Source: Xanthobacter autotrophicus Py2
Lineage (GTDB): Bacteria; Pseudomonadota; Alphaproteobacteria; Rhizobiales; Xanthobacteraceae
Direction of reading: 5' to 3'
Assembly: GCA_000017645.1 (NCBI GenBank)
Contig: CP000781.1
Span: forward strand, 62,001-126,000
Length of the DNA stretch: 64,000 nucleotides
The notes below the pieces were generated by a model. The model did no database searches and was not told the DNA's origin. It was given only the letters and a program-made list of their open reading frames with translations. Position 1 is the first letter of the stretch; each line of letters opens with the position of its first letter. Positions 9,844 to 60,894 of the stretch are shown one piece after another. Both the position numbers and the translations under genes were made by a program.

Positions 9844-10101
9844 GGACAGGACGTTCAACGCGACCTCCGCACCCCCGGCCCCCGGATTGGAAGGTTTAGA
9901 ACGTCCTTGCCGGGGATGCAATGTTTCCATGCAAAATGTGGGCCGCATGGCACTGTGATCCGGCGCACGGCTGGGACAGTCGCGGTGTATCTAGGATAAA
10001 TTATTGATTTGAAAGCGATATTGTGCAAATGGTCATGGCTGTACCTGCAGCCCCGGCTACCGCCGGAAGCGCATTTCAACCGCTGCGCGCGTTCGCTTTC
10101 G

Positions 10102-10794
10102 TCAGCGGCGGGGGGCTTGTCCGCCCTGGTCGGCGGGCTTGGGCAGGGTGTCCTGCTTCAGGCTGCCGGGGACGATCAGGCTTTCCACCCGCCCGCCCTC
10201 GAACTTGGACACGCCGGAGACGAGGTCAACCACCAGCTTCTGGCCACGGATCACGTTGGGGCCCTGGGTGAGGACCACCGGCTTGCCCACGAGGGTGACC
10301 GTGTTGGTCTTCATCTCGAACACGCCGCTGTCGCCGGTGGCGGTCTGTTCCTTGGTCTTCACCACCACGCCGCCCACGGCCTCCAGCTTGCGGATCTGGC
10401 CCTTCTGGGACGGGTCGACGCCGTTTGCCTGCTCCCCGGCGGGCTGGCCGCCGGCCTGCTGGGCCACGGAGCCCTCGTAATAGACCATGAGGTCCTTGGA
10501 GCGCAGCGTGGTGTCGCCCTGGGTCACCAGCACGTTGCCGGAAAACACCGCGACCTTGTCCTTGTCGCGCACCTCAAGGGAATCCGCATTGATGCGCACC
10601 GGCTGGTCGCGGTTCTTGGCAAAGCCCTGAAGAGCGTTGGGCACGTTGGAAGTCTGCGCCACAGCGCTGCTTGACGTTGCAACACCCACAAGGGCGGTGC
10701 CGGGCGCCGCGACGAGCATCGCCGCCGCTGCGGCCTGAGCGAGGCGCCGGGCGCGGAAGGCGAGGCCGGTTCGGTCCTGGGACTGGCGGATCAT
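10102..10794 (-). CDS. lptA: Lipopolysaccharide transport periplasmic protein LptA
   Basis: 230 aa from ATG 10794. A signal peptide ends near the AVAQ cleavage site (about residue 47). The OstA/LptA beta-jellyroll follows, with INADSLEVRDKDKVAVFSGNV, LRSKDLMVYYEG and KLVVDLVSGVSKFEGG. It bridges lipopolysaccharide from LptC at the inner membrane to LptD at the outer membrane. Its start overlaps the end of lptC by 4 bp, implying translational coupling. Confidence 0.9.
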   Translation of the reverse strand: MIRQSQDRTGLAFRARRLAQAAAAAMLVAAPGTALVGVATSSSAVAQTSNVPNALQGFAKNRDQPVRINADSLEVRDKDKVAVFSGNVLVTQGDTTLRSKDLMVYYEGSVAQQAGGQPAGEQANGVDPSQKGQIRKLEAVGGVVVKTKEQTATGDSGVFEMKTNTVTLVGKPVVLTQGPNVIRGQKLVVDLVSGVSKFEGGRVESLIVPGSLKQDTLPKPADQGGQAPRR

Positions 10795-11711
10795 GGGTTG
10801 GACACCGGACGTCGCGGGGGAAGGGGAGTGGGCTGGGCGGCGGGCGTGGCGGGCACAGATCCCACCGCGTCGCCATGGAGTTTGGCGGGTGTTCCGGCAG
10901 GCGCGCCTGCCGGCGGGGTGGCCTCGCCAGACTTCTGGCCGGGCAGGTTGGACATGCGGAAATCCAGCTGCACGTTGCCCTCGAACAGGGCGCGGGTGCC
11001 GCGGTCGCCCACGTGCAGGCGGTCGGCCACCAGCCTGCCGTCCAGATAGGTGAACACCACCGGGTTCTCGGTGGCGATGGTGCCGGCCTTCACGTCCACC
11101 TCGGCATCCTGCAGGCGGCCGCCGTAGCCGCCGTTCATGGCGAGGTCCACGCCGTCGCCCAAGGTGATGAACTGCTTCTTCGTATCGAAGGTGCCCACCT
11201 TGGCGGCGACCTTGGCCCAACCCTTGTCGGTCATCTCCAGCCGGGCCTCGATGTCGGTGAGGTCGATGAGGTCCGGGTGGGTCAGATCCTGGGTGGCGGT
11301 GCGCGCGGTGACGCGGTAGCCGCGATTGTCGTCGGTGAAGCCGGAGAGCTTCGGCAGCTCCATGGTGAGGCGCGAGCCGGACAGGGTGAGGTGCCCGATC
11401 TCGAACGGAAGCTCGATGGAAAGCTTCAGTCGCGACAGGATGGAAACCGCGCCGATGGCCACCACCGCGACGACGATGGAGAGCGGCAGCAGGCGCTTGA
11501 TCCAGCGCACACGCTTGCTGTGGCGCCGGGCGCTGGAAAAGTCCGGGCTCGCGCGCTGATCGAGGGCGGCTTCCTCGTCGGTGTAGTCCCGGAAGGTGGG
11601 AGACGCTTCCAGGCGCGCATCAGGGCGCGCGTCGAGCCGCGCGTCTTGGAGCGCGGCCGCTGGCACGGTCCCTTGCCGGTCGAGATCGTCTGGCGACACG
11701 TGTCGGTTCAT
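10791..11711 (-). CDS. lptC: LPS export system protein LptC
   Basis: 306 aa from ATG 11711; a TTG start at 11735 is possible but weaker. One membrane segment (IKRLLPLSIVVAVVAIGAV, near 71-90) follows a long charged cytoplasmic tail. The periplasmic LptC beta-domain follows. A proline/alanine-rich C-terminal tail of ~35 residues is unusual. It receives lipopolysaccharide from LptBFG and passes it to LptA, whose gene follows with a 4-bp overlap. Confidence 0.88.
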   Translation of the reverse strand: MNRHVSPDDLDRQGTVPAAALQDARLDARPDARLEASPTFRDYTDEEAALDQRASPDFSSARRHSKRVRWIKRLLPLSIVVAVVAIGAVSILSRLKLSIELPFEIGHLTLSGSRLTMELPKLSGFTDDNRGYRVTARTATQDLTHPDLIDLTDIEARLEMTDKGWAKVAAKVGTFDTKKQFITLGDGVDLAMNGGYGGRLQDAEVDVKAGTIATENPVVFTYLDGRLVADRLHVGDRGTRALFEGNVQLDFRMSNLPGQKSGEATPPAGAPAGTPAKLHGDAVGSVPATPAAQPTPLPPRRPVSNP

Positions 11712-33816: not shown

Positions 33817-35298
<1,482 letters not shown>

Positions 35299-52748: not shown

Positions 52749-53621
52749 ATGAATATTTCCGTCGCCAATATCGAGACGCTGAAGCTCGCCGACGCCGAAG
52801 CCGTCCTGAAGGACGTGGCGGCGGAGCTGGTCGCCGGCAAGGCCGCGCCCTATCTGGGGCCCGGCCTGCTGGAGCTGTCGTCGCCCGCCATTCCGGTAAC
52901 GCCGGAGGGCCTTGCGGCCTTTTTCGGCACCAAGGTGGCACTGCCCAAGCGCGCCAAGGGCAACGCCTGGGCCTCCGCCCAGCACATCGAGAGCATGAAG
53001 CACCGCTCCACCGTGTCGGCCCTCATGGCCGAGGCGTTCGCCCCGCCTGTGCCGCCGCTGCCGTTCCACACCTTCCTCGCCGGCCTGAACCTGCCGCTGA
53101 TCGTGGACACCTGGTACGACGGCGCCATGCGTTCGGCGCTGGAGGGCCGGGAGGGCTGGGGCGAAGCGCAGGGCATCACCCGGGCTGGCATCGGCGAGGA
53201 TCGCTGGTATCGCTTCTATGATGCTGCCGGCAACGAGACCGACCGGGCGGCGGCCGAGACCTGGACGACCGTGCTCTACAAGCCCCACGGCAGCGTCGCG
53301 CCGGCCAAGAACTGGCTGATCTCCGACGCCGACTATGTCGAGGTTCTCACCGAGATCGACATCCAGACGCCGATCCCCGACGTGGTGAAGAACCGCCGCA
53401 CCGAGCGCAGCTTCCTGTTCCTCGGCTGTCGCTTCCACGACCAGATGCTGCGGACCTATGCGCGCCAGGTGACAAAGCGTTCGCGTCTGCCCCACTTCGC
53501 CATCGTGGACGAAGCGGTGCTGACCAAGAACGAGCTGCGCTTTCTGCTGACGCACGCCATCACGCCCATCGCCATGCCACTGCCCAAGGCGCTGGACATC
53601 ATCATGTCGGTCGCCGCCTGA
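52749..53621 (+). CDS. SIR2-like protein with altered active-site motifs
   Basis: 290 aa. It resembles SIR2-family proteins in order and spacing: [10 protein letters not shown] where GAGxS is expected, [11 protein letters not shown] where TxNYDxxxE is expected, LYKPHGSV with the conserved His, and [11 protein letters not shown]. The Gly-Ala-Gly-x-Ser and Asn residues used for NAD hydrolysis or deacylation are replaced (LGPGLL; Trp for Asn). NAD chemistry may therefore be lost or changed. Last gene of the nifS-nifT unit before a strong terminator. Confidence 0.7.
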
Positions 53622-53759: not shown

Positions 53760-53775
53760 TGTAACTTTCCCAACA
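53760..53775 (+). promoter_or_regulatory. NifA upstream activator site 1 (nifB)
   Basis: TGT-AACTTTCCCA-ACA, exact consensus, 110 bp upstream of the -24 element. Confidence 0.8.
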
Positions 53776-53796: not shown

Positions 53797-53812
53797 TGTT
53801 GTTAAGCCGACA
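53797..53812 (+). promoter_or_regulatory. NifA upstream activator site 2 (nifB)
   Basis: TGT-TGTTAAGCCG-ACA, exact consensus, 73 bp before the -24 element. Confidence 0.82.
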
Positions 53813-53869: not shown

Positions 53870-53885
53870 TGGCACGCCAGTTGCT
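53870..53885 (+). promoter_or_regulatory. Sigma-54 promoter of nifB
   Basis: TGGCAC-GCCAG-TTGCT, perfect -24/-12 element 53 bp before the nifB ATG. Confidence 0.94.
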
Positions 53886-53937: not shown

Positions 53938-55500
53938 ATGCACGCGTCGACACAGCACGAGACGACCGAAGTCGGTGTGGCCGACAAGCTGGCCGAAGTC
54001 ATGCAGGCGAAGGCCGAACACCAGGGTTGCGGCACGTCCGGCGGCTCGGGCAAGGCCAGCTGCGGTTCGTCCGCCGGTCAGGGCGACCTGCCCACCGAGA
54101 TCTGGGAGAAGGTGAAGAACCATCCCTGCTATTCTGAAGAAGCCCACCACCACTATGCGCGTATGCATGTTGCCGTTGCCCCGGCGTGCAACATCCAGTG
54201 CAACTACTGCAATCGCAAGTATGATTGCGCCAACGAATCCCGCCCCGGCGTGGTGTCCGAGAAGCTGACGCCCCAGCAGGCGGCGAAGAAGGTGCTCGCG
54301 GTCGCCTCCACCATCCCGCAGATGACCGTGCTGGGCATCGCCGGCCCCGGCGACCCGCTCGCCAATCCGGAGAAGACCTTCCAGACCTTCGAGCTGATCA
54401 ACCGGACCGCCCCGGACATCAAGCTCTGCCTGTCCACCAACGGCCTGGCGCTGCCCGACCACGTGGACACCATCGCCGGCTTCAACGTCGACCACGTGAC
54501 CATCACCATCAACATGGTGGACCCGGAAGTCGGCGCGAAGATCTATCCGTGGGTGTTCTGGAAGCACAAGCGCTACACTGGCTATGAGGCCGCCAAGCTC
54601 CTCACCGACCGGCAGATGCTGGGCCTCGAGATGCTCACCGAGCGTGGCATCCTCTGCAAGGTCAACTCGGTGATGATCCCCGGCATCAACGACAAGCACC
54701 TTGTCGAAGTGAACCGGGCGGTGAAGTCCCGCGGCGCGTTCCTGCATAACATCATGCCGCTCATCTCGGCGCCCGAGCACGGCACCGTGTTCGGCCTCAA
54801 CGGCCAGCGCGGCCCGACGGCCCAGGAGCTCAAGGCGCTCCAGGATTCGTGCGAAGGCGAGATGAACATGATGCGGCATTGCCGCCAGTGCCGCGCCGAC
54901 GCCGTGGGCCTCCTCGGCGAGGATCGGTCCGCCGAGTTCACCACCGACAAGATCATGGCCATGGAGGTCAACTACGACCTCGACAGCCGCAAGGCATACC
55001 AGGCCCTGGTCGAGGAAGAGCGCGTGGCGAAGGTCGCCGCGAAGCAGGAAGAGATGGAGGCCCTCGCCGGCGAGCAGAGCGACATCAAGCTCCTCGTGGC
55101 CGTGGCCACCAAGGGCTCGGGCCTCATCAACGAGCACTTCGGCCACGCCAAGGAGTTCCAGGTGTGGGAGCTCTCCACCGCGGGCGCCAAGTTCGTCGGC
55201 CATCGCCGCGTCGACCTGTATTGCCAGGGCGGCTACGGCGAGGAGGACAGCCTCGAGACCATCATCCGCGCCATCAACGACTGCCATGCGGTGTTCGTGG
55301 CCAAGATCGGCGGTTGCCCGAAGGCTGACCTCGTCAAGGCCGGCATCGAGCCGGTGGACGGCTTCGCCCACGAGTTCATCGAGAAATCGGCCATCACCTG
55401 GTTCAAGGACTACCTCAACAAGGTGAAGACCGGTGAGATCGTCCATGCGGAGCGCGGCGACGCCGAGATCCGTCAGGGCGCCCTCATCAACGCGGCCTGA
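53938..55500 (+). CDS. nifB: Radical SAM NifB-cofactor synthase
   Basis: 520 aa from ATG 53938, preceded by GAGGAG. Radical SAM ligands Cys84-x3-Cys88-x2-Cys91 (CNIQCNYC). The SAM domain runs to about 360, with cluster-binding cysteines in [15 protein letters not shown]-terminal NifX-like domain (from [25 protein letters not shown], residues ~383 on) follows. It inserts carbide and sulfur to make NifB-co. The N-terminal ~45 residues hold extra cysteines ([14 protein letters not shown]). Opens the third NifA unit. Confidence 0.98.
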
Positions 55501-56813: not shown

Positions 56814-57582
56814 AGACGACATCGACGAGGCCAAGACCTGGCTCGGGGAAGACGTCGATTGCTCCTCGTGCGCCCACCAGGATCTCCTGGCGGAGGGAAA
56901 GTGCCATCTGGGGCGGGCCTGCGTGAACGATCGCTACGCCCGGCGCATCGACCGCTTCTTCAACTGGAACCCGTCGCTCGCCAATTCCTATGTGCGGCAC
57001 GACCATTTCGAGGTGCGGGCCATCGCGGCCAAGCACGCCGACGTGTTCGTCCTGCCGCCGCTTCTCAACGACCCGGAGGAGACGGTGCGCTGGAACGCGG
57101 CGCGGCGTTTGCCCAAGACCAAGATCCTGCCGCTGCGCTACGATCCCCACCGGGAGGTGCGCATCCGCATCGTGTCGCTGCTGGAGGACGCCGACCTCTC
57201 TCCCATGATGGCGGACGAGGATTACTACGTGCGCCTGGTGGTGGCACGGCGCATCGCGCCGCCGTTGCTTTCGCGCATGGTGGACGATCCCGAGGCCGAG
57301 GTGCGCCGCGTGGTGGCCCAGCGCCTGCCGTCGGAATGGCTGTTGTGCATGGTCAACGACCGCAGCCCGCAGGTCCGCCTGGAGGTGGCCCAGCGCCTGG
57401 CGCCCGATCTTCTCTCCGCGCTCGTCGCCGATCCGGACTGGCGGGTGCGCTACGAGGTGGCGAGCCGCATTGCTCCCACCCAGGTGTCGCAGTTGATCGA
57501 TGACGACGACGACTTCGTGCGCGAGGTCGCCCGGTCCCGCGCGCAGGCGGGCGGGGAGCTTTTGAGGGAGATGCCGCTATGA
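56803..57582 (+). CDS. 4Fe-4S leucine-rich repeat variant (LRV) protein
   Basis: 259 aa. N-terminal cluster motif Cys20-x2-Cys23-x10-Cys34-x5-Cys40. About eight LRV-type helical repeats follow (for example DPEAEVRRVVAQRL, DRSPQVRLEVAQRL, DPDWRVRYEVASRI). It matches the LRV protein known from Azotobacter nif regions, where the fold and an N-terminal [4Fe-4S] cluster were described. Molecular role unknown. Coupled to nifZ by a 4-bp overlap. Confidence 0.92.
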   Translation: MKTEDDIDEAKTWLGEDVDCSSCAHQDLLAEGKCHLGRACVNDRYARRIDRFFNWNPSLANSYVRHDHFEVRAIAAKHADVFVLPPLLNDPEETVRWNAARRLPKTKILPLRYDPHREVRIRIVSLLEDADLSPMMADEDYYVRLVVARRIAPPLLSRMVDDPEAEVRRVVAQRLPSEWLLCMVNDRSPQVRLEVAQRLAPDLLSALVADPDWRVRYEVASRIAPTQVSQLIDDDDDFVREVARSRAQAGGELLREMPL

Positions 57583-57905
57583 GCAACATTGTCCGTGACA
57601 GTGATGTGGTCGAAGTCTCAGAGCCGCCCTACTTCAATTTCGGCGAGAAGGTGAAGGCCAAGCGCGTCATTCGGAACGACGGCACCTATGCCGGAAAGGA
57701 AATCGGCGAGATCCTCGCGAAGAAGGGCGAGATCGGTTACGTCGTTTCCATCGGAACCTTCCTGCAGCAGTTCTATATCTACGGCGTCGAGTTCACGGAA
57801 AGCGGTAATCGCGTGGGCATGAAGCGCAAGGAACTGGAAAGCGCGATTCCGCGCGACGAAGAAGACATTCCCCTGCCCCCTATGCCCGGAGCACCCAGAG
57901 CATGA
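57579..57905 (+). CDS. nifZ: NifZ family protein (first copy)
   Basis: 108 aa. NifZ motifs PPYFNFGEKVKAKRVIRNDGTYAGKE (~16-41 in parts), GEIGYVV and FLQQFYIYGVEF. NifZ helps P-cluster maturation in the MoFe protein. Overlaps both neighbours by 4 bp. Confidence 0.94.
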   Translation: MSNIVRDSDVVEVSEPPYFNFGEKVKAKRVIRNDGTYAGKEIGEILAKKGEIGYVVSIGTFLQQFYIYGVEFTESGNRVGMKRKELESAIPRDEEDIPLPPMPGAPRA

Positions 57906-58147
57906 TCCTCGAGCCGCGCAACCCCAAGTATCAGTGGGGCCAGAAGGTCAAGACGCTGATCGACCTTTACAATGACGGCTCCTATCCGGATTTCCCGGAC
58001 GAGGCGCTGCTGGTCGGCCTCGGCACCACCGGCGAGATCGTGCAGGTGGGCACCCACACCGACACCAACACGCCGATCTATCTGATCGAGTTCACGGAAC
58101 GCCTGGTGGTGGGGTGCCTCGAGGAAGAGATCTCCCCGCTCGAGTGA
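57902..58147 (+). CDS. NifZ-like protein (second copy)
   Basis: 81 aa. A second, shorter NifZ-type domain: PKYQWGQKVKTLIDLYNDGSYPD, GTTGEIVQVG and IYLIEFTERLVVGCLEEEI. ATGA overlap with the first copy makes them a translationally coupled pair, perhaps a heterodimer. Confidence 0.88.
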   Translation: MILEPRNPKYQWGQKVKTLIDLYNDGSYPDFPDEALLVGLGTTGEIVQVGTHTDTNTPIYLIEFTERLVVGCLEEEISPLE

Positions 58148-58194
58148 ACAGCACGCGAAGCCCGCAGGGCTTGGATCTGGAAAGAGACGAGACG

Positions 58195-58524
58195 ATGAGG
58201 CTGCCCGCTCATCCGAACGATCTCGACAAGAAGCGCATCGAGCGCGCCATCAAGGCACGCAAGCGCTATCGCTATGTCACGCCCCGGGTGCTGGCCACCG
58301 AGGGCGGCTATCGCATCGAGAGCGCGTGCTGCTCGCGCAACGTCGATCCGGAGGGGGGCGTGGTCGACATCGCCCTCCTGCTGTTCGACGCGGAAGAGAG
58401 CGCCTGGCAGCTGTTCCGCAAGAACCATGGCACGCGGCTGTGGGAACTCGACAGCACCCATGACCGGTTGAAGGAGGTCCTGGATCTCCTCAACGACGAT
58501 AGCGAACGCAAATTTTGGCAATGA
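58195..58524 (+). CDS. DUF3024-like nif-region protein
   Basis: 109 aa from ATG 58195; a GTG at 58144 is in frame and also plausible. Motifs KKRIERAIKARKRYRYVTP, CCSRNVDPEGGVVDIALL and WQLFRKNHGTRLWE resemble DUF3024. It has a vicinal Cys-Cys pair. Function unknown. Confidence 0.72.
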   Translation: MRLPAHPNDLDKKRIERAIKARKRYRYVTPRVLATEGGYRIESACCSRNVDPEGGVVDIALLLFDAEESAWQLFRKNHGTRLWELDSTHDRLKEVLDLLNDDSERKFWQ

Positions 58525-58612
58525 TCTAATTTGGCAATGATCCTGCATGGGGCTGTGGGACTGCGACAGACGACGCGGACGTGTCTCATCTTCGGCAAGG
58601 GAGAGTTAGGTT

Positions 58613-58876
58613 ATGGCCCTCAGCGACAGCGACCTCACCGAGATCGAGCAGCTCCTCACGGGCGAGGCCGCGTCCGGCCCGGTCTTTGCCGAGCTGCGCC
58701 GCCGGTTTCCGGCCCTGTCCTGGACCCAGTGCGACGCCTCCGATGTCACGGAAGAGCCATTCCGCACCTATTCGACATACGACATCCACCTGCTCGACAC
58801 CGCCGATCACTGCGCCCACATCACGCTCGATCCCGCGAGCGCGACCGGTGTCATCCTTGCCCGGCGGAGCGTGTGA
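58613..58876 (+). CDS. DUF6129-like nif-region protein
   Basis: 87 aa. A short acidic helix (DLTEIEQLLTGE), then ELRRRFPALSWTQCDASDV and an HLLDTADHCAHITLDP strand. The pattern fits the small nif-linked DUF6129 family. Its stop shares one base with the start of the next gene (TGATG). Confidence 0.72.
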   Translation: MALSDSDLTEIEQLLTGEAASGPVFAELRRRFPALSWTQCDASDVTEEPFRTYSTYDIHLLDTADHCAHITLDPASATGVILARRSV

Positions 58877-60078
58877 TGAGTGACATGGATCTCTTCGACG
58901 ACGCCGACCTGCCCGCCGACGACGCGGGCGAGGAGGGGACTTCGATCCTGTTGTCGGATCCCGACATCACCATGATCGAGCTTCAGGCCGTGGCCGAGGC
59001 CCTGCAGGCGCCGCGCCTGTCCAGCGGCCCGACCGCCGAGGCATTCGAGGCGGCGTTCGCCGATTACCTCGGCCGTAAATATGCGGTGGCCGTGCCGAGT
59101 GGCACCATGGGCCTGCTCTACACCCTCAGGGCCTATGGCATCGGTCCGGGCGACGAGGTGATCTGCTCGCCCCATTCCTTCCGGGAGACGGTCCACGCCG
59201 TGAGCCTGTCGGGCGCGCGGCCGGTGTTCGCGGACATCGATTACTGGGCAGGAACGCTGGTTCCTGAAAAGGCCGCGGCCAAGATCACCGAGAAGACCAA
59301 GGCCATCGTTGCCGGCAATGCCAACGGCCATCCGGCGCCCTGGACCGCCTTCCAGGAGCTGGCGCGCGCGCACAAGCTCGTCCTCATCGAGGATTCCACC
59401 GAGGCCATCGGCTCACGCTACAAGGATGCGCTGGTTGGGTCGTTCGGCGACACATCCGTGTTCGATTTCTCACAGCCCTTCCCGCTGGTGTGTGGCGAGG
59501 GCGGCATGGTGGTGACCGACGACATCGACGTGGCGGTGGGGCTGCGGCGCTTCCGAGCCCACCGGCTCGATGAGCGTTCGTCGGTGGTGGTCTCCATGAG
59601 CGCGCCCTACCAAGGTGCCATGAGCGACGTGACCGCGGCGCTCGGCCTCGCCCAGCTGGGGCGGCTTGAGGAAATTCTCGAGCAGCGGCACACGGTGGAG
59701 CATCTTTACCAGAAGTACGTCCAGTCGTTCGAGGGCATCAAGGATCCCTTCATCGGCCCGGACGTGACGGAGGTGAACTGGTTTCTCTACGTGGTGCACC
59801 TGGGCACCCGCTTCTCCAAGTCGAGCCGCGATGCCATCGTGGACGACCTGAAGGTGGAAAAGGTGGAGTCGGCCGCCTACAGCGCGCCGCTTCATCTGCA
59901 GCGTCATTACTTCGACCTCGGCTATCGCAAGGGCGACTTCCTCGTGACCGAGAAGGTGGCGGACCGGGCAATCGCCCTGCCGTTCCACACGCACCTGTCC
60001 GAGGACGAAATCGAGTTCATCGTCGCAACGATGAAGGATGCCTCGATCAATGTAGGGGCGGGCGCCGCCATCTACTGA
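58876..60078 (+). CDS. DegT/DnrJ/EryC1/StrS-family protein lacking the PLP lysine
   Basis: 400 aa. Fold type I aminotransferase of the DegT group: AVPSGTMGLLYTLRAYGIGPGDEVI, LIEDSTEAIGSRY and GEGGMVVTD. The family's Schiff-base lysine stands five residues before GEGG. Here the segment reads FDFSQPFPLVCGEGG, and Phe202 takes the lysine's place. It is thus unlikely to be a transaminase in the usual way. The N-terminal 25 residues are acidic. Coupled to the DUF6129-like gene; a nif-specific structural or binding role is inferred. Confidence 0.88.
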   Translation: MSDMDLFDDADLPADDAGEEGTSILLSDPDITMIELQAVAEALQAPRLSSGPTAEAFEAAFADYLGRKYAVAVPSGTMGLLYTLRAYGIGPGDEVICSPHSFRETVHAVSLSGARPVFADIDYWAGTLVPEKAAAKITEKTKAIVAGNANGHPAPWTAFQELARAHKLVLIEDSTEAIGSRYKDALVGSFGDTSVFDFSQPFPLVCGEGGMVVTDDIDVAVGLRRFRAHRLDERSSVVVSMSAPYQGAMSDVTAALGLAQLGRLEEILEQRHTVEHLYQKYVQSFEGIKDPFIGPDVTEVNWFLYVVHLGTRFSKSSRDAIVDDLKVEKVESAAYSAPLHLQRHYFDLGYRKGDFLVTEKVADRAIALPFHTHLSEDEIEFIVATMKDASINVGAGAAIY

Positions 60079-60126: not shown

Positions 60127-60444
60127 ATGATGTCCACGGTTACGTTGAAGGTTCTGCCCGCCGGAAAGACCATCGAAGTTGCGGAAGGTACGAACCTGCT
60201 CGAAGCGCTCATCACCGTCGAGCCGGGCCTTGCCGCGCGGCAGGCCTCGGACAAGGACGGCAGCGCGTCCCACGTCTTCGTGCAGGAGGGCCGCAAGGGT
60301 CTTTCGAAGACCTCGCGTGAGGAGAACGAGCTGCTCGACGCGATCGTGGGCGTGGGCTCGAAGTCCCGCCTGGCCAAGTACATCACCGTTCTCGGCACCG
60401 AGAACGTGACGGTGGAGCTCCTCGGCGAGTTCTCTGGCCTCTGA
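60127..60444 (+). CDS. Plant-type ferredoxin-like protein without cysteines
   Basis: 105 aa from ATG 60127 (GGAG upstream). Strand order VTLKVLPAGKTIEVAEGTNLLEAL (residues ~5-28), HVFVQEG, SREENELLD and SRLAKYITVLG matches [2Fe-2S] ferredoxins of the adrenodoxin/Isc type. All four cluster cysteines are missing, and the whole protein has no cysteine. It cannot bind a ferredoxin-type cluster, so it may bind a partner of a true ferredoxin. Confidence 0.78.
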   Translation: MMSTVTLKVLPAGKTIEVAEGTNLLEALITVEPGLAARQASDKDGSASHVFVQEGRKGLSKTSREENELLDAIVGVGSKSRLAKYITVLGTENVTVELLGEFSGL

Positions 60445-60482: not shown

Positions 60483-60669
60483 CTCTGGGACGTCCTCACG
60501 GCAGGACAAAGAAAATCCGCCCTGCCGCTGGCACGACAGGACGGATGGGAAGATGCCGGACTGGCGCGGACGACCGTGCCCGCCGGTAGACGTTTCTGTT
60601 TTTTAGGGTCGTCGCGAAGAGGGGATGGGGATCTGCCGGTTCGCGACGCGGTCAAAGTGGAGAAGCACG

Positions 60670-60894
60670 ATGGACGCGGAAAAGGTTATCATTCACTCGC
60701 GGTTCGCCCCCAACGGCACGGTCGTGGAGATCAGCGAACGCCCCACGGGCCTCGACCCGCAGGACTGGTTCAACTTCCTGTCCTACCAGGCGGCGGACAG
60801 CTATCAAGCGCTGGCCGGTGGCCGCGGCGTCTTCCGTCTCACGCGCGTCGCGGTGGATGCGCTCAAGACCGAAGCAACCACCAAAGCTGCGTGA
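60670..60894 (+). CDS. Small hypothetical nif-region protein
   Basis: 74 aa from ATG 60670 (GGAGAAG upstream). Begins EKVIIHSRFAPNGTVVEISERP, then PQDWFNFLSYQAADSYQALAGGRGVFRLTR. No cysteine and no recognised family. Placement at the end of the nifB unit suggests co-expression. Confidence 0.65.
   Translation: MDAEKVIIHSRFAPNGTVVEISERPTGLDPQDWFNFLSYQAADSYQALAGGRGVFRLTRVAVDALKTEATTKAA

Follow-up and report, generated by a model that had tools for sequence, protein, structure and literature searches.

A nif-linked DegT-fold protein of Xanthobacter autotrophicus Py2 has lost the PLP lysine and the phosphate serine and is probably a pseudo-aminotransferase of nitrogenase maturation

The nif cluster in a 64 000-nucleotide stretch of the Xanthobacter autotrophicus Py2 genome (the whole stretch analyzed, hereafter the window) contains a gene for a DegT-fold protein that lacks the lysine to which pyridoxal phosphate (PLP) is normally bound and has an aspartate in place of the serine that holds the PLP phosphate. 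With a probability of roughly 60%, we consider this protein to be a pseudo-aminotransferase dedicated to nif, with a remodeled PLP pocket and a role in nitrogenase maturation. The gene (58876..60078, + strand) runs from an ATG at 58876 to a stop that ends at 60078 and forms an intact reading frame of 400 residues with no internal stops. An earlier note on this DNA stated that the motifs of the DegT fold are kept, and the match to PF01041 (DegT_DnrJ_EryC1) bears this out: it scores 296.7 bits against a cut-off of 19.8 (E 3.4e-88), extends over 355 residues and covers profile positions 4-359 of 360, which makes the protein a full-length member of the family. None of the 17 listed NCBIfam DegT equivalog families (PseC, ArnB, WecE and others) reaches its curated cut-off, with PseC coming closest at 222.8 versus 423.5 bits. 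The window protein carries the name aminotransferase in databases. As for the residues that mark a DegT enzyme, the aspartate of the pyridine nitrogen is present (Asp173), while the PLP lysine is Phe202 and the phosphate serine is Asp197.

Phe202 (codon 59479..59481, + strand) lies in the motif FDFSQPFPLVCGEGG, which spans residues 196-210 (59461..59505, + strand). It aligns with the lysine of GDP-perosamine synthase 3bn1 (FSFFGNKIITTGEGG) and with that of ArnB 1mdo (FSFHAIKNITCAEGG), confirming the previous reading that phenylalanine replaces the PLP lysine. A misalignment that conceals the lysine is ruled out, as the FxF...GEGG stretch aligns with perosamine synthase without a gap. A sequencing error or a pseudogene is ruled out by the intact reading frame, by the protein P0002 of X. 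oligotrophicus, which is 98% identical and likewise has Phe at 202, and by the complete absence of Lys, Arg and His from this site among 312 aligned clade sequences. These comprise the window protein, 224 proteins and 87 loci, and overlap with two smaller sets: the query with its 120 best database homologues (91 Ser, 14 Phe, 13 Gly and 3 Ala; Lys in 0 of 121) and the window with 80 genome loci (26 Leu, 22 Ser, 18 Gly, 12 Phe and 3 Val; Lys in 0 of 81). In the full alignment, site 202 is occupied by Ser in 166, Gly in 71, Phe in 31, Leu in 30, Ala in 7, Gln in 4 and Val in 3 sequences, and the 115 rows below 86% identity have 64 Ser, 34 Gly, 7 Phe, 6 Ala, 2 Gln and 2 Leu, with no Lys. Lysine is found in 33 of the 34 rows in a first set of comparison DegT proteins (the remaining row being a gapped fragment) and in 30/30 rows of a second, the two sets having 15 rows in common.

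What is conserved at site 202 is thus the absence of lysine rather than phenylalanine. Phe at this site is local, being found among the 80 loci in six Xanthobacter, one Azorhizobium and four Bradyrhizobium, and the site ranks 327 of 376 columns in conservation. Because it is among the least conserved sites, phenylalanine as such is not selected and lysine seems to be no longer needed; the idea that Phe is in itself a meaningful residue is ruled out by the variability in the 312-row alignment. The earlier note had proposed that a lack of lysine in all nif-linked copies would mean a selected loss. Within the clade, to which this comparison was confined, the lysine is absent from every alignable copy (0/312). 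Selection, on the other hand, is not seen at the freely varying site 202, and is visible instead at Asp197, Asn148, Asp173, Glu176 and the C-terminal tail.

The second change, from serine to Asp197, is stricter than the loss of the lysine and was absent from the earlier note. In the solved DegT aminotransferase Spr1654, as described in PMC5936713, Lys199 is the PLP lysine, Asp170 holds the pyridine nitrogen, His173 holds O3', and Ser194 and Thr59 grip the phosphate with their side chains. Mapped through the ArnB equivalents printed in that text and the ArnB alignment, Lys199, Ser194, Thr59, Asp170 and His173 correspond to window residues 202, 197, 77, 173 and 176. Position 197 (codon 59464..59466, + strand) is Asp in all 312 clade members and in 115/115 of the rows below 86% identity; the comparison proteins have Ser in 34/34 rows of the first set and, in the second (n = 30), Ser in 29 and Ala in 1. 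An acid at the phosphate position argues against ordinary PLP binding, and with the lysine also absent an internal aldimine should not form. With both PLP anchors lost, the sequence indicates that the window protein most likely does not perform transamination through PLP. The proposal that a DegT fold has been re-used in a nif context therefore stands with respect to the fold and the gene cluster and is stronger than originally claimed, as the phosphate serine too is replaced by an invariant residue; the phenylalanine itself is a local feature.

Most PLP contacts other than the lysine and the serine persist. On the ring side, Asp173 and Glu176 are each found in 312/312 sequences and an aromatic residue (F, W or Y) occupies position 102 in 308/312, whereas the remaining contacts S75, T77, E208 and G209 are kept in 297, 291, 302 and 310 of 312, respectively, with the SGT of the helix mostly retained. 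On these grounds, PLP or PMP may still be bound non-covalently, so that vitamin B6 might be used as PMP or as an external aldimine of PLP in the kept ring pocket, with some other residue moving the protons. ColD and CDP-6-deoxy-L-threo-D-glycero-4-hexulose-3-dehydrase (E1), both of which match the clade profile, are lysine-less PMP-binding dehydratases of the same fold family, in which a histidine at the lysine site performs the proton transfers in lysine's stead. No clade member has His at site 202 (0/312), and a dehydratase of the histidine type is ruled out at this site. In addition, the phosphate group is the main PMP anchor in Spr1654 (PMC5936713), and the serine that grips it is Asp in 312/312. 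We regard continued use of B6 as rather doubtful.

The clade has also gained features of its own. Positions 103-104 are nearly always a coupled pair, either Arg-Glu or His-Gln. An N-x-N-G-H-P motif is formed around Asn148, Asn150 and His152 (312, 303 and 311 of 312, respectively), positions where the comparison rows mostly have Asp/His, Phe/Tyr and Gln, and Trp156 (311/312) and Pro201 (312/312) are similarly fixed. The last 13 residues (60037..60075, + strand) form a clade-specific C-terminal tail ending in GAGxAIY, with G394, I399 and Y400 conserved in 311, 311 and 310 of 312 sequences; this terminus is present in 46 of 47 rows of a tree alignment, the exception (L157) being truncated where its locus ends. 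Among PDB entries, the clade profile best matches GDP-perosamine synthase (3bn1/3dr4/3dr7; E 8e-72, near full-length), an enzyme of sugar synthesis. It has in common with the window protein the Asp and Glu of EDAAEA and the GEGG loop, but where it has Lys and Ser the window protein has Phe and Asp, and its alignment ends before the GAGxAIY tail. The five best PDB alignments of the clade profile all end at profile position 373 of 386.

Several lysines elsewhere in the protein are well conserved, namely Lys132 (306), Lys289 (311), Lys360 (296) and Lys387 (310 of 312). If one of them, for example Lys289, formed the internal aldimine, the protein would be an unusual but ordinary PLP enzyme. Lys289 is nearly clade-specific, being present in 47/47 clade rows and 3/30 comparison DegT rows, as would suit such a substitute. 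However, both Lys289 and Lys387 are located in the C-terminal part, which we take to be the small domain, at a considerable sequence distance from the PLP loop, and this makes Lys289 an unlikely replacement. Lys132 speaks against the idea in another way, as perosamine synthase has a lysine at the same alignment position, though only 3/30 comparison rows do. Since the phosphate serine is lost as well, a substitute lysine appears very unlikely.

The lysine-less proteins form a single clade. In a first tree with 34 nif-linked and 33 lysine-bearing rows, the two groups are split by one change with 100/100 support and a long stem, and in a second, quick tree with 47 clade and 30 comparison rows, the clade has an SH-aLRT of 100. 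The closest lysine-bearing relative found, L134, comes from another class of the phylum and has 36.5% identity (319.6 bits). It has G-H-P-x-x-W in common with the clade but retains the lysine (YPNKQITTGEGG); a single quick tree places it as sister to the nif clade, with weak support (92, below the star). At its 4.1-kb locus, 0/16 of the other window genes tested have a match, and the neighbors look polysaccharide-like by eye. With such neighbors, the ancestor of the clade was probably a sugar aminotransferase.

The gene is under purifying selection. In pairwise comparisons with seven Xanthobacter loci, its dN/dS ranges over 0.05-0.20, as compared with 0.06-0.16 for NifB and 0.05-0.36 for a neighboring SIR2-domain protein in the same loci; the DegT value lies between the other two in six of the seven, and just below both in the seventh (L003). 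Together with the clade-wide absence of lysine, this shows that Phe202 is not a product of chance or gene decay. A relic, that is, a once-useful transaminase that no longer has a function but is still inherited with the nif operon, would agree with the patchy distribution of the clade, which was recovered from just six of the 41 genomes with nifD, with the stop-broken frame in one of 80 loci, and with the neighboring ferredoxin-like protein of the window that lacks cysteines. It is at odds with the dN/dS values, with 105 alignment columns in which one residue reaches at least 97% across 312 sequences, and with reading frames that are unbroken in 79/80 loci and in 22 shorter loci except the one cut at its end (L157); we find this explanation hardly credible. 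The one split gene is that of Bradyrhizobium pachyrhizi PAC 48 (L052, about 9890-11185), which is interrupted by an in-frame stop.

In every locus examined, nif genes surround the clade gene. In the best 80 of 288 genome loci, some of them cut by contig ends, homologues of nifZ and of a DUF6129-family gene were found in 80, of a DUF3024 gene in 78, of NifT and the SIR2 protein in 71 each, and of NifB in 65. A further 15 loci were taken from elsewhere in the phylum, two of them being refetches (of L088 and L089); in all 15, two or more of NifS, NifT, SIR2 and DUF6129 are encoded within a distance of about 4 kb. We found the clade in 6 of 398 genomes of the phylum, with at most four candidates scored per genome, and nifD above the cut-off in 41 of the 398; all six are among these 41. 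The clade is therefore present in 6/41 genomes with nifD versus 0/357 others (Fisher p 8e-7, the kinship of the genomes being ignored), and its presence in only six of the 41 indicates that nitrogenase does not generally depend on it. Organisms with the clade include Xanthobacter, Azorhizobium, Methylocystis, Bradyrhizobium and Nitrospirillum.

In the window, the DegT gene belongs to a run of genes on the + strand that starts at nifB (53938..55500, +; named by eye, start codon inferred), probably the first gene of the transcript. An exact sigma54-type -24/-12 site (53870..53885, +) precedes nifB, and no other exact site occurs between it and the DegT gene; exact sites in the window are located at 34238, 50290 and 53870. 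Two NifA-type sites of the form TGT-N10-ACA lie upstream of nifB (53760-53775 and 53797-53812, +), a pattern matched 14 times in the window versus 5.1 expected by chance. Another match at 59459 is within the DegT coding sequence and probably due to chance. As a promoter of its own, the DegT gene has only a sigma54-like site with two mismatches at 58532, and this candidate was rejected, the window having 23 sites with two mismatches or fewer and shuffled sequences an expected 30.5. Between nifB and the DegT gene are two nifZ genes (57579..58147, +), with nifZ matches upstream of the DegT gene in 80/80 loci, the DUF3024 gene (58114..58524, +) and the DUF6129-family gene (58613..58876, +), the TGA of which shares a base with the A of the DegT ATG. 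We infer from this arrangement that the DegT gene is cotranscribed with the nifB and nifZ genes.

The DUF6129-family gene has a homologue about 0.5-1.1 kb upstream of the DegT gene (between ORF midpoints) in 80/80 loci. As an obligate partner of the DegT protein it is weakened by Pfam DUF6129 matches in 3 of the 35 genomes that have nifD and in which the clade was not found (G001, G064 and G364), where the match is on the same contig as nifD at a distance of about 3 kb. In the six clade genomes, Pfam DUF6129 matches occur in two, and BLAST adds a DUF6129-like neighbor in three, with none in G114. Homologues of the DUF6129-family protein from 85 loci conserve a CDxSDV motif and the cysteine of a DHC motif, a possible metal site. 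The SIR2_2-domain protein, the gene of which (52749..53621, +) follows nifT, is also encoded near the DegT gene in deeper relatives, and we know of no role for it in nif clusters. An obligate partnership with DegT was rejected here as well, given that the nif cluster of Zymomonas has a SIR2-domain gene and the gene list printed in PMC8594446 names no DegT gene.

Downstream of the DegT gene, a [2Fe-2S]-ferredoxin-like protein is encoded at 60130..60444 (+). Four cysteines are present in 38 of its 65 aligned rows, while the window copy, which has no Pfam match of its own, and ten others (nine from Xanthobacter and one from Bradyrhizobium) have none. The copies without cysteines still conserve GRKGLSK..ENE..GVGSKSRLA..LGTE, and judging by this pattern the protein seems to be a second one that has retained its fold yet lost its cofactor. 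Further downstream, a small protein (60625-60894, +) with the pattern RFAPNGxVxEISERP...GGRGVFRL is conserved and nif-linked, with homologues in 71 loci and no Pfam match up to E 0.05.

Lysine-less proteins of this fold type may also persist as subunits. LCB1/SPTLC1 is a fold-type-I subunit without the lysine that is under selection and is paired with its lysine-bearing paralogue LCB2 in serine palmitoyltransferase. By analogy, the window protein could be the regulatory subunit of a heterodimer with a DegT paralogue or with NifS. There are 12 matches to PF01041 in its own genome, among them the window gene itself and weak ones, and nifS is near the DegT gene in deeper relatives and also within the window cluster. 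However, the remaining proteins in this genome that match the clade profile are distant (30-31% identity), NifS is from another subfamily, and, in contrast to the close partner of LCB1, no second DegT-matching gene is encoded alongside the clade gene, be it in the window, in the 80 genome loci or in the shorter ones screened (n = 22). A heterodimer of this kind is, in our judgment, unlikely, although its partner could be a distant or NifS-type protein.

For the pseudo-aminotransferase that we favor, we propose that a sugar aminotransferase was recruited a single time to a nif module with nifS, nifT, the DUF6129-family gene, degT, the ferredoxin-like gene and the SIR2 gene. It would then have lost both PLP anchors, the aldimine-forming lysine and the phosphate-holding serine, while keeping the ring side of the pocket with Asp173, Glu176 and the aromatic residue at 102. 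Asp197, Arg103-Glu104 (or His-Gln), Asn148 and His152, which are read from the alignment as facing the pocket, may form its new lining. The frozen floor of the pocket suggests that the cavity is probably still important. A DegT-type homodimer would accordingly bind another ligand in place of PLP, or offer a surface that includes the GAGxAIY tail, and might act in the maturation of the nitrogenase cofactor or the P-cluster, presumably expressed from a transcript that also encodes NifB and NifZ. Of these two, NifZ takes part in the maturation of the P-cluster (PMC6484116). As a tentative and more specific suggestion, the carboxylates of Asp173, Glu176 and Asp197, with Asn148, His152 and the 103-104 pair, might form the binding site for a metal ion or for a cofactor precursor, either cationic or organic, which the protein would deliver or condition for NifB-cofactor or P-cluster maturation. 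If so, the protein would be, to our knowledge, the first nitrogenase assembly factor on a PLP-free aminotransferase fold. As two central PLP residues are gone in all aligned clade members while much of the remaining pocket is frozen, it would make a clear test case for the recruitment of an enzyme fold to metallocluster assembly.

In the open-licence literature searched, as far as the accessible text goes, the gene appears only in passing. In the accessible part of PMC3899966, BRADO5411 of Bradyrhizobium ORS278, presumably the counterpart of the window gene to judge by gene order, is a putative DegT-family aminotransferase in a list of nitrogen-fixation genes, with no remark on its lysine or its function. 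A. caulinodans has the nif-related operon near it (BRADO5414, 5416, 5418 and 5424) in conserved form and up-regulates it in stem-nodule bacteroids (PMC3899966). In the available text of the A. caulinodans genome paper (PMC2443382), the word 'aminotransferase' is absent and the nif table does not name the window gene. Nothing on the loss of the lysine in nif-linked DegT proteins, and no data on mutants of the gene, were found in the open-licence literature searched. The clade represents an unstudied accessory gene added to the nif clusters of the five genera named above, with relevance to the transfer of nif gene sets to new hosts, where unrecognized accessory factors may count. One genome of the phylum survey (G964) has two copies of the lysine-less DegT gene, located on two contigs.
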